NCBI GenBank assembly: GCA_019058515.1
Contig: JAHPYY010000063.1
Coordinates: 1-64,000, forward strand
Source of the DNA: Promethearchaeota archaeon
GTDB lineage: Archaea; Asgardarchaeota; Lokiarchaeia; Sigynarchaeales; SOKP01
Length of the DNA: 64,000 nt
Direction of reading: 5' to 3'
Below the pieces are notes generated by a model. It made no database searches. It had not been told where the DNA came from and was given only the letters and a program-made list of their open reading frames with translations. How positions within the stretch are numbered: position 1 is the first letter of the stretch; each line of letters begins with the position of its first letter. Below are positions 51,433 through 55,129 of the stretch, in pieces. The translations under genes were made by a program, and so were the position numbers.

Positions 51433-52359
51433 ATGTTTAGAGAGAAGTTTAGAGAAGAGGGTATAATTAGTGCAAAAGACTTTGTTAGAGAAGATATCGA
51501 TTATATATTAGATAAAGCTGACAAGATGCTGTCAATTAAAACTTCTGATTTACTAAAAGGAAAGATATTAGCGACATTATTCTTTGAACCATCAACGCGA
51601 ACGAGATTAAGCTTTGAATCAGCAATGTATCGATTAGGTGGAAATACGATTGGTTTCCATTCCGCAGAAGTGTCTTCCACTAAAAAGGGTGAAACTCTCG
51701 CAGATACCATAAGAACGGTTCAAAATTATAGCGACTGTATCGCCATTAGACATTCATTGGAAGGTGCGACGAGATTAGCAGCAAAATTTGCGCGAGTCCC
51801 TATCATTAACGCAGGATCTGGCAGTGGAGAACATCCAACACAAGCTCTATTGGATTTGTTTACAATCAAACAAGAATTAGGAAAGATAGATTCCCTCAAT
51901 ATTGGTATCGTAGGAGATCTAAGATATGGAAGGACCGTTCATTCACTATCTATTTTACTGTCAAACTATGATGTGAACATTTATTTTATCAGTCCAGAGC
52001 TCTTACAAATGAGAAACCGTGAGAGGGACTTCCTCCAACAGAAACAAGTTAAATTCAAGGAAATTCCAAAATATCGGGAAGTTTTGGACATTTTAGATGT
52101 GCTATACATGACACGAATTCAAAAAGAACGATTTGTAGATATGGAAGAATACGAAAGAGTAAAGAATTTTTATATATTTAAAGAAGAGGACCTTAATAGG
52201 ACCAAAGATAACTTTAAAATCATGCACCCGCTTCCTCGGGTCAATGAAATTTCAGACAAAGTAGACAAATTCGAAGATAAAGCTATATATTTCAAACAGA
52301 TGAATTACGGACTTCACTTAAGAAAAGCAATTCTCGCAGAACTACTTGCGAATACTTAA
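51433..52359 (+). CDS. pyrB: Aspartate carbamoyltransferase catalytic subunit
   Basis: Second step of pyrimidine synthesis: carbamoyl phosphate plus aspartate to carbamoyl aspartate. The carbamoyl-phosphate loop STRTR is at 54-58 in FFEPSTRTRLSFE, and the 80s-loop region SSTKKGETLADT follows. GSGSGEHPTQALLDLFTI matches the H-P-T-Q-A-L-L-D site, and HPLPRVNEI closes the active site. It has 308 residues, normal for the catalytic chain. The regulatory gene pyrI is not adjacent, unlike many archaea. It starts with ATG 51433; the 3' end overlaps the convergent NrdD-like gene by 4 bases. Confidence 0.96.
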   Translation: MFREKFREEGIISAKDFVREDIDYILDKADKMLSIKTSDLLKGKILATLFFEPSTRTRLSFESAMYRLGGNTIGFHSAEVSSTKKGETLADTIRTVQNYSDCIAIRHSLEGATRLAAKFARVPIINAGSGSGEHPTQALLDLFTIKQELGKIDSLNIGIVGDLRYGRTVHSLSILLSNYDVNIYFISPELLQMRNRERDFLQQKQVKFKEIPKYREVLDILDVLYMTRIQKERFVDMEEYERVKNFYIFKEEDLNRTKDNFKIMHPLPRVNEISDKVDKFEDKAIYFKQMNYGLHLRKAILAELLANT

Positions 52360-54335
52360 TTATTTATAAAATTTAATTTGAATGCTCTTACATGGGCGTT
52401 AATTAACATTTCGAAAAGATTTTCGAATTTATATATTTCCGGATTAAAAATTGGCTGAAATATTGACCCTCCATTTATGTATTTTTCAAATTTTTTATAC
52501 AACTCTATTTGCCTGTCGAGTGATAAACTAGTTTTAGATCTAATCAATCGAAATGCATCTTTAGGGTTTACTAAATGTGAAGTTTGATTCAAGCTATACA
52601 TGTTTGACAAATTTCCTTCATGAGGCTGGCAAAGCAGGTACAATCCCCTCTCTTCTCGGGACTGATCTTTTATTGTATTTTTCATGAATTTTAAAACTTT
52701 AACCGCAAATCGCTCACTATTTTCGGTTAAATCAGGCGCAATTCCACAATGATAAGTTATTGCTGAATCTAAATTCATAAAACTTATAGCTTTTACAGAT
52801 GTTTCAAGAAACTCTTCGCGCTCCTCAGTGTAAATTATATTACCATATGTTCGCGGATACTCTCTTTTTTTTAGGAACTTAGTTTTCAACTCAAATAATC
52901 TGATTACATCCTCAATTCTTTTTCTCAATATTTCTAGAAATAATCCGTCATCTTGCGCGGAACTTTCGGAAATAGAATGTAGATTTATGAAAATTGTATC
53001 AAGAATTAATATATCTTCAAAATCATCGAAGAAGGACTCATAATTGGTTTTTACATTGTAAGAATTTATTGAATTAGATGATTTTCCATCATAGAAAAGA
53101 AGATTTTCATAACCTATACCTTCACTCGCTCTATATTTGATAAAATCTGCAGAAGCCTCTAAAAAATTATTTTGAGAGTAATCCATAACAAAATTGGGAT
53201 TTTGTACAAGATTCAAGTTAGTTAGAGCACGATTGAATATCTCTTCAAGAGTAAAATCTGCCACTTTGGTTCCTGCGTTGTTAACGGCGTTAAATTCAAA
53301 GGATAGACGAGGATGTACCACATGATTATCAAAAAATGCTGGTCTAATCGATTTTAACAAAATTCGCACAATAGAAATTGTTTCCTCATATGGTAAACCT
53401 TCAAAATATTTTAAAAATGAAGATTGAAACTTCCTTAAAAATATATCTCCTGAAAATTGTAAACTCAATCTCGTTAGTAGTAACCCCAAATCATTTATAA
53501 TTTCCACTACCTCTCTGAAATTTAAGTTAGAAGTTTGCCTTATGCTATGTTGTTTGTATAAATAATCGAAGATTTTATCGGAATTTAAACACACTGCTAG
53601 CGGTCTAGTGCTCCAAGAATTAAGGTGTATTAGCGAAACTTGTCCAGATAAATAGAGATCTGCTAATTCCTTAGGAAGTAAGTTCAACAATAGATATTGT
53701 TCAGAAACATCCGATCCTAATTGATGAATTAAACTTTCTGGAGTAATAGAGGAATTTGAGAATAATTTAGAGACTTCGTATGGAGGAGTTCCAAGACGAG
53801 TTAATTTGTGTCTAACTTCTTCTAATCCTTTCTCAAGTAAAATTCCATTGATATATTCGCGCATAAGTGGAGCGGTTAAGTATTCAATCTTGGTTCTTAA
53901 TAATCTTTGTTTAACCTCTTTTGCGATATTTCGTGCCAAATAACTCTCTAATTTTCCCTCACGTTGTAGGTAACTCTCGATTTTCCTTACATCAAATGGT
54001 TCTTTAGAATATTTTGATGTACGGATCATTATGGTTTTAGTTTCCTTATTTATCTCGTGCTCAATTGCCAAGATGCTATCGAGAATTGACTTTCCTAACT
54101 TCGAAATCAAATACCCTTCTTCCTGGTTCGAAATTAAGCTACACTTTTTTAGTGCATTAAGGTGAAACGAAAAGTTTACTGAGGAATTTTCGTTTTTCAA
54201 CACTTCCTTTTGCAACTGCGAGTAAGACAGTGGGTTATTGGCATTAGCTAGTCTCTTTAGAACATCAATCCTAATCTTCTGACCAAGTGTCTTCAAATGT
54301 TTTACTAATGAACGAGAATTTTTGTCGGTCTCCAC
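52356..54335 (-). CDS. Winged-helix / ATP-cone / degenerate NrdD fusion protein
   Basis: 659 residues with three parts. Residues 1-95 are an ArsR-like winged helix (KTLGQKIRIDVLKRLA ... SFHLNALKKCSLIS). Residues about 100-190 are an ATP cone as in ribonucleotide reductases (TIMIRTSKYSKEPFDVRKIE, then LEKGLEEVRHKLTRLGTPPY). The rest matches anaerobic reductase NrdD (LNLLPKELADLYLSGQVS and a C-terminal YINGGSIFQPIFN), but it stops before the Cys-rich finger and glycyl-radical segment; no R-V-C-G-Y motif exists. The enzyme should therefore be inactive. A dNTP-sensing transcription regulator is the simplest reading, by analogy with NrdR, and is inference. Starts ATG 54335. Confidence 0.8.
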   Translation of the reverse strand: METDKNSRSLVKHLKTLGQKIRIDVLKRLANANNPLSYSQLQKEVLKNENSSVNFSFHLNALKKCSLISNQEEGYLISKLGKSILDSILAIEHEINKETKTIMIRTSKYSKEPFDVRKIESYLQREGKLESYLARNIAKEVKQRLLRTKIEYLTAPLMREYINGILLEKGLEEVRHKLTRLGTPPYEVSKLFSNSSITPESLIHQLGSDVSEQYLLLNLLPKELADLYLSGQVSLIHLNSWSTRPLAVCLNSDKIFDYLYKQHSIRQTSNLNFREVVEIINDLGLLLTRLSLQFSGDIFLRKFQSSFLKYFEGLPYEETISIVRILLKSIRPAFFDNHVVHPRLSFEFNAVNNAGTKVADFTLEEIFNRALTNLNLVQNPNFVMDYSQNNFLEASADFIKYRASEGIGYENLLFYDGKSSNSINSYNVKTNYESFFDDFEDILILDTIFINLHSISESSAQDDGLFLEILRKRIEDVIRLFELKTKFLKKREYPRTYGNIIYTEEREEFLETSVKAISFMNLDSAITYHCGIAPDLTENSERFAVKVLKFMKNTIKDQSREERGLYLLCQPHEGNLSNMYSLNQTSHLVNPKDAFRLIRSKTSLSLDRQIELYKKFEKYINGGSIFQPIFNPEIYKFENLFEMLINAHVRAFKLNFINN

Positions 54336-54511
54336 TTTCTTGAAGTATAATTTGCCTAACTGTTATAAGATTTAATTTAATCTTAAGTTAAGCAATTATA
54401 TAAAAGTTAAGGTTGATCCCCTCTATATTGCGAGATTATATAATATTTGGGTGATATGATAAAAAGATATAAGAAAAGTGTTTAAGAGACTAGTAGAAAT
54501 GTATTTGAAGT

Positions 54512-55129
54512 TTATCTTGCTGATACGGCAATCCTTTCTACTTCGTCCTTCTTTCGCACTGCCCGAGAATCTTGCGAATTTTGAGCTGCCATAATTAATT
54601 CTTGTGCCAAATTCTCTCCAAAAGCATTTATATTTGAGTGAGATTTGGTCCCAATAGCCTGGATTAGATACTTTATTGCTAAATCTACTCTTCTTTGAGG
54701 GGAAATATCCACAGCAGAAGCGTAGGAAATGCCACCCATAGCAATTCTGGTCGTTTCTTCACGAGGAGCGGTGTTACAAATCGCATCTACGAGGACTTGG
54801 ATTGGATTTAGACCTGTTTTGATATTAATTAGTACAAATGCGTTTTTAATGCTTTTAACTAACTTTGATTTTTTCCCTGAATTATAGGAACTCTTGTGAC
54901 CTTTTATTTTCCCAGCTATAAATCCAGGGGATAGTAATCGATTAGTAAATCTTTCAATAATAGATACTTTTGAAGATTTCCAAAATCTCTTATGCTCGTG
55001 GCGTCCGCAACTATACGGTACAATAATAGGTTTTAAATTTATGTAATTTTCAAGAGTGAAATCCGAGATCTCAATATCCTTATACGACCATTGATTAAAG
55101 AGCATTATTTCAGTTTTTTCCTTGGACAT
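54512..55129 (-). CDS. rps7: Ribosomal protein S7
   Basis: 205-residue small-subunit head protein (uS7) that nucleates 16S assembly. Landmarks are SCGRHEHKRFWKSSKVSIIERF in the N-terminus, VDAICNTAPREETTRIAMGGISY, and DISPQRRVDLAIKYL. The C-terminal AQNSQDSRAVRKKDEVERIA is the archaeal/eukaryotic tail that contacts mRNA. It starts with ATG 55129. In most archaea it follows S12 in one operon; here S12 lies on the opposite strand and is divergent, 208 bases away. Confidence 0.97.
   Translation of the reverse strand: MSKEKTEIMLFNQWSYKDIEISDFTLENYINLKPIIVPYSCGRHEHKRFWKSSKVSIIERFTNRLLSPGFIAGKIKGHKSSYNSGKKSKLVKSIKNAFVLINIKTGLNPIQVLVDAICNTAPREETTRIAMGGISYASAVDISPQRRVDLAIKYLIQAIGTKSHSNINAFGENLAQELIMAAQNSQDSRAVRKKDEVERIAVSAR

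Follow-up and report, generated by a model that had tools for sequence, protein, structure and literature searches.

What can a protein do that carries a DNA-binding domain on the body of a class III ribonucleotide reductase (RNR)? The question is raised by a gene of 659 codons in a 64,000-nucleotide stretch of a Promethearchaeota archaeon contig (JAHPYY010000063.1, positions 1 to 64,000 of the forward strand), which was analyzed as a whole and is called the window here. The initial annotation, made from the letters alone, described an ArsR-like winged helix, an ATP cone, and an NrdD-like body that ends before the glycyl-radical and Cys-finger region. Domain and fold searches agree with this description and place the parts as follows.

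52356..54335, minus strand: HTH, ATP cone, and pseudo-NrdD protein, 659 aa, GTG start
54072..54296, minus strand: winged helix, DUF7347/ArsR-like, residues 14-88, DUF7347 match over the cut-off
53775..54032, minus strand: ATP cone, residues 102-187, from a domain match and conservation in aligned members
52368..53744, minus strand: RNR α/β barrel, residues 198-656, without catalytic Cys, NxN flap, or glycyl-radical domain

The winged helix exceeds the curated Pfam cut-off for DUF7347 (41.4 bits vs 27.6), and the protein scores under the cut-offs of both the ArsR NCBIfam model (24.7 vs 55) and the NCBIfam NrdD equivalog (42.1 vs 326.35 bits). The NrdR model is absent from its four NCBIfam matches, and the winged helix occupies the place of the Zn ribbon. 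The ATP cone of the window protein lies below the Pfam cut-off, which is exceeded in 5 of 6 relatives of one set and 1 of 3 of another; read from its sequence, the window cone lacks the KRDG-like turn that is usual in such domains. For the remainder, plain phmmer against the PDB gave no match, and a profile of 42 rows gave weak matches to NrdD (best E 0.0053), after which a fold search settled the identity of the RNR α/β barrel. The protein ends at the point where the zinc/glycyl-radical domain would start. The combination of winged helix, ATP cone, and NrdD body makes it a candidate nucleotide sensor, with predicted binding of ATP or dATP.

The search for further HTH-ATP cone-NrdD architectures, proposed in the initial annotation, uncovered a large archaeal family. 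With the window protein as query, 499 matches at E ≤ 1e-3 were obtained among 7991 scored. The best 120 of these 499 relatives measure 639-671 aa and each contain DUF7347 and NRDD; the 119 besides the query share 41-45% identity with it over 95-100% of its length. A scan of the genome collection, whose two seed patterns were taken from the window's own clade, retrieved 52 loci of this short form, all titled Lokiarchaeia or Lokiarchaeota. Phylum-wide, a profile search matched 136 of 227 genomes, many of the weak matches being merely cones of true NrdD, and detected the fused family at E < 1e-50 in 82 of the 227. Twenty longer or odder members comprise 18 open frames of 710-779 aa, one of 638 aa, and one fragment. 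When residues 1-330 of one longer member served as query, 2790 matches were found among 7998 scored; among the 120 matches listed were Freyarchaeota, Jordarchaeum, Baldrarchaeia, Odinarchaeota, Njordarchaeum, Helarchaeota, an Atabeyarchaeon, Verstraetearchaeota, Methanomethylicus, Methanosuratincola, and Bathyarchaeia. A third search (1838 matches among 7995 scored) added Nitrososphaeria and Methanomethylicia, and tblastn among 9 pattern stretches found no viral relatives. Members are named at the source as "anaerobic ribonucleoside-triphosphate reductase", "ArsR family transcriptional regulator", or "anaerobic ribonucleoside-triphosphate reductase/predicted transcriptional regulator"; database entries such as P0002, P0142, and P0133 belong to the same family as the window protein, and their names are silent on the lost chemistry. 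Our literature search, confined to open-licence PMC papers and hence weak evidence of absence, found the architecture described nowhere.

The loss of chemistry was examined in an alignment of 10 true Asgard NrdDs, 5 HTH-less relatives, and 319 members of the fused family (299 of the 302 proteins found, three shorter than 620 aa having been dropped, and 20 from loci, one of them a fragment; a few of the 319 have no DUF7347 call). At the first catalytic Cys column, a cysteine is present in none of the 319 fused members and in all 10 true NrdDs. The radical-Cys columns, where the alignment is looser than at the anchored RP-C motif, hold a cysteine in 2 of 319 and again in 10 of 10. These residues are the equivalents of C79 and C290 of the T4 enzyme. 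The alignment, a check that the initial annotation had proposed, thus shows the catalytic residues to be lost almost throughout. The substrate-covering NxN flap is replaced by a gap in all 120 short members, and long members do not usually show it either (Asn at both places in 1 of 70 in a smaller alignment). Of the HxH phosphate motif, 142 of 199 long members retain the first His, and the short clade has lost it. Toward the C-terminus, 184 of the 199 long members keep all four zinc cysteines, and their radical Gly position holds Gly in 86, Ala in 54, and Asn, Ser, or Thr in 44. In the short clade, to which the window protein belongs, the Gly and the third and fourth Zn columns are gaps in 120 of 120; the radical domain that is vestigial in long members has gone. 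The initial annotation had named a separate downstream frame for this domain as evidence against its reading; in our scan no glycyl-radical frame was accepted, downstream or anywhere in the window. We read the order of loss as a graded path, in which the cysteines would have disappeared first, the radical Gly next, and the zinc knuckle last.

A FastTree built from 661 columns of cone and barrel in 83 sequences, after two of 85 rows were left out as incomplete, separates 68 fused from 15 other sequences with a support of 1.0 and shows the fused family as one clade of single origin. Among 42 aligned members, mean pairwise identity is 65% for the HTH, 79% for the cone (residues 99-187, the most conserved part), 75% for the next 63 residues, 35% for the first part of the barrel, and 50% for the second. 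Overall dN/dS ranges from 0.13 to 0.32 in the 40 closest pairs listed (drawn from 45 coding sequences, so that pairs share sequences), which shows maintenance throughout the protein, strongest in the sensor: the value for the cone is below 0.2 in 37 of the 40 pairs, with barrel parts reaching 0.46. The term "decayed reductase" used at the outset therefore holds for the catalytic residues but not for the barrel, which is kept under purifying selection.

Five further Lokiarchaeal frames of 601-627 aa (L059-L063, from genomes G008, G005, G004, G001, and G003) are dead NrdDs without the HTH, with no catalytic cysteines and no glycyl-radical domain. In the tree these frames make up a clade of their own with a support of 1.0, next to Lokiarchaeal NrdD and inside the region occupied by true NrdD, and represent a second, independent loss of chemistry.

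Dead chemistry, purifying selection, and the union of HTH, cone, and barrel make the 659-aa protein very likely a regulator. It probably works as a one-component transcription regulator and uses a complete class III RNR, now inactive, as its sensor. In such a protein the cone would bind ATP or dATP, and the old dimer-interface site of the barrel may hold a further nucleotide; a ligand-driven change of oligomer, as in true NrdD and NrdR, would be passed on to the winged helices. These would bind a direct-repeat box, two helices per dimer meeting two repeats, and the first target would be the gene's own promoter, where the following elements lie.

54439..54457, minus strand: conserved promoter box ATATCACCCAAATATTATA, in the 176-bp stretch between rps7 and the gene, 122 to 104 bp before the start
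54393..54410, minus strand: probable TATA element TTAACTTTTATATAATTG, from aligned upstream regions, of putative function

The box, a 19-bp element of consensus ATATCACCYACATATTATC, is matched at 14 or more of its 19 positions upstream of the gene in 51 of 52 short-form loci, vs 20 of 1040 Markov-resampled regions; a first, stricter pattern was found in 35 of the 52, and the core in 47 of 52 vs a mean of 0.01 over 200 resamplings. It lies 95-137 bp before the start, mostly at 120-124. A TATA-like element was located in 34 loci, and in 27 of them the box lies 31-33 bp upstream of it. Its layout is the direct repeat ATATCAC-N4-ATATtAt, with two ATATYAYC copies 11 bp apart. Boxes upstream of TATA more often serve activators or feedback than repressors that block TBP, and an activator or distal feedback role would fit this position no less well than TBP-blocking repression.

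Genome-wide, the strict box was found 14 times, in 13 of 20 whole genomes, vs 2 matches of the reversed control. Ten of the 14 precede the regulator gene, and the other four have no gene in common. A looser box gave 41 occurrences in 19 genomes vs 9 in the control, 13 of them before the regulator gene and 11 before a 103-aa gene of unassigned role, which has the box in 12 of the 30 loci examined, all of them among the 15 that resemble the query best, at 81% or more. The family of this protein of about 103 residues (e.g. L255:1656-1967, plus strand) is present in 88 of 227 Asgard genomes. The 17 leftover matches of the 19-genome search were set aside as further sites: of 11 inspected, 6 lie inside ORFs, and none recurs. 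With 3 mismatches allowed, 35 matches were obtained vs 23 in the control (4 genomes), hardly an excess, so weaker sites are beyond the reach of the search.

Local regulators are often marked by a box at their own promoter, and we infer that the protein, a predicted sequence-specific DNA binder with the 19-bp box as candidate site, is itself the reader of the box. A box before a regulator can also be bound by another protein. That the element belongs to an unrelated transcription factor, and so says nothing about the 659-aa protein, would account for its presence at the 103-aa gene, but the concentration of strict matches before the regulator gene speaks against it, and we regard it as rather unlikely.

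If the protein is a one-component regulator, its targets might be sought among its neighbors, two of which flank the gene directly.

51433..52359, plus strand: pyrB (aspartate carbamoyltransferase), convergent, with a 4-bp overlap with the stop of the 659-aa gene and conserved linkage
54512..55129, minus strand: ribosomal protein S7, upstream neighbor on the same strand

In the 52 short-form loci and the window taken together, S7 lies upstream on the same strand in 48 of 53 and pyrB follows on the opposite strand in 49 of 53. Genes for rpo A subunits lie further upstream in this set, and downstream an OB-fold protein is joined by PCNA-like and primase-like genes in about 30 of 53; many of the 53 loci end short of the outer neighbor positions. 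The identities of S7, pyrB, and rpo are backed by Pfam, that of the OB fold weakly. For the longer forms, the flanks of 15 loci from 14 genomes contain pyrB in 11, pyrI alone in 2, and neither in 2. The orientation of pyrB relative to the longer forms varies, being convergent in several; at locus L172, pyrB and the regulator gene abut head to tail on one strand, pyrI is divergent, and a true grx-nrdD pair converges from the other side.

A linkage with pyrB that outlasts changes of orientation argues for a shared pathway. It is consistent with a nucleotide-sensing regulator whose main targets are the adjoining pyrimidine or ribosome/replication genes (pyrB and the rps7-rpo cluster) rather than nrd, and the L172 arrangement points the same way. 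However, the box is absent from all 47 pyrB upstream regions searched (best score 11.8), two of the 15 longer-form loci have neither pyrB nor pyrI, and the linkage is mostly convergent; in the window, this orientation means that pyrB and the regulator gene share no promoter. We hold these neighbors as main targets to be a tentative and somewhat doubtful possibility.

The initial annotation drew on NrdR, which controls RNR genes, and proposed to look for a conserved site upstream of nrd genes. Run on the genomes of relatives, this search found no box before true nrdD in 28 upstream regions from 25 distinct genomes (43 loci were given, 15 of which yielded no upstream region): the best score was 6.2, vs a mean of 26.4 at the regulator gene's own sites, a result that concerns the regulator gene's own kind of box only. 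Since neither nrdD nor pyrB has the box upstream in the regions searched, the nrd regulon that was expected does not emerge. In the proposed "repressor made from a reductase", the derivation of a regulator from a dead NrdD is well supported; that it is a repressor, that it senses a dNTP, and that it controls nrd genes are claims that reach past the evidence.

The true nrdD genes have a conserved element of their own, CCGACAAA, in 27 of 28 Lokiarchaeal upstream regions. It is situated about 57-92 nt before the assigned start (e.g. L164 and L158) and in some cases makes up the right part of an imperfect inverted repeat, TCRGTT-N6-ACCGA; genome-wide it gave 31 matches vs 22 in the control, and those that recur lie at nrdD. 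A sharing of this element between nrdD and the regulator gene was considered and dropped, the copies near the regulator's start being (S/T)DKN codons (window, L028, and L034). Some true nrdD frames of Lokiarchaea are overlong, at 1186-1228 aa (L058 of G006, G119:C83, G135:C211, and G148:C36), and that of L058, read in part, looks to hold an intein.

The RNR content of the genomes bears on the same point. NrdR exceeds its cut-off in 7 of 227 genomes (G063-G069) and in none of the 82 with the fused family at E < 1e-50. Among these 82, 73 also have an NrdD-family match at E ≤ 1e-40, a count that is uncorrected for kinship and in which the match in long-form genomes can be the fused protein itself (e.g. 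G088); for these two reasons a Fisher test of co-occurrence with NrdD was given no weight. In the nine genomes with a fused gene and no such match, some of which may be incomplete, PF13597 detects the fused protein alone in eight and nothing in G096, and PF02867 has no match in any. Four genomes (G095, G096, G098, and G099) have no RNR by the NrdD, NrdJ_Z, and lgC models, any NRDD match being the HTH-fused dead protein. As G095 is essentially one 4.36-Mb contig with no RNR by those models, the fused protein there cannot serve an RNR that these models recognise. Persistence in the four genomes with no RNR by these models fits nucleotide sensing and not control of RNR.

Persistence without detected NrdD also weakens the idea of a pseudoenzyme partner, which would form a heterodimer with true NrdD and set its activity, the winged helix acting as a protein-interaction or tethering part. 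The separate origin of HTH-less dead NrdDs in some Lokiarchaeal genomes indicates that dead NrdD subunits do get kept, but the fused clade stands far from true NrdD (a branch of about 0.65 in the rooted display of the tree) and its winged helix is conserved at the identity given above, so that we consider such a role improbable.

Split reductases do exist elsewhere in the phylum. Six genomes encode NrdR and NrdD in one frame of 804-832 aa, and the full-length examples L326 and L327 keep Cys at the catalytic motifs. For L332-L336 (G063-G067), the glycyl-radical loop and the second zinc pair lie in the next frame, of 80-92 aa, in 4 of 5 cases, the fifth ending with the contig; the zinc knuckle therefore seems split between two chains. 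The small frame is followed by a glutaredoxin-like and then an NrdG-like gene. A lone 56-aa glycyl-radical fragment (RVMGYY; L338:2903-3070, G002) stands in a probable mobile element that carries polymerase-like and helicase-like genes, and is perhaps a spare part for NrdD. Although these split domains and the lone ORF lend it a precedent, an active reductase that a separate glycyl-radical peptide makes whole is scarcely credible here, as the window's clade lacks both catalytic cysteines, the NxN flap, and the HxH phosphate motif, and the window holds no glycyl-radical ORF.

We return to the one-component regulator with an inactivated RNR as its sensor. To our knowledge, the mechanism that matches dNTP production to replication in archaea without NrdR is open, and the fused family is a testable candidate for nucleotide matching in Asgard and TACK archaea. 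There is roughly an even chance that a whole RNR works as a multi-site nucleotide sensor in a class of gene regulator found across archaea, the cone and the dimer-interface site of the barrel sensing the (d)NTP pool and the winged helix relaying the outcome to DNA. Such a regulator would take the place of NrdR in Asgard and TACK lineages and would tie the dNTP state to pyrimidine supply and to the ribosome, RNA-polymerase, and replication cluster around the gene. The family would also display the stepwise turn of a radical enzyme into a sensor, with the cysteines nearly all gone while the finger is kept, and the domain then lost. In practical terms, reductase names mislead metabolic reconstruction, most of all in genomes where the fused protein is the sole RNR-like protein found.

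Compared with known systems, the protein is closest in plan to NrdR, in which an ATP cone is likewise next to a DNA-binding domain and which controls transcription by nucleotide-driven oligomer changes (PMC9110341). NrdR has a Zn ribbon, whereas the 659-aa protein has a winged helix and, behind the cone, a whole dead NrdD barrel; NrdR boxes are palindromic, whereas the box of the 659-aa gene is a direct repeat. In the NrdD of P. copri, ATP favours the dimer and dATP the tetramer (PMC11226230). Relative to class III NrdDs of known structure (P. copri 8p27/8p23, S. thermophilus 9d3x, T. maritima 4coi, and T4 1h78), the 659-aa protein adds a winged helix and dispenses with the catalytic cysteines, the NxN flap, and the glycyl-radical domain. 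With archaeal ArsR/DUF7347 regulators it has the N-terminal HTH in common, but it differs from them in carrying, fused to that HTH, 570 residues of enzyme origin.
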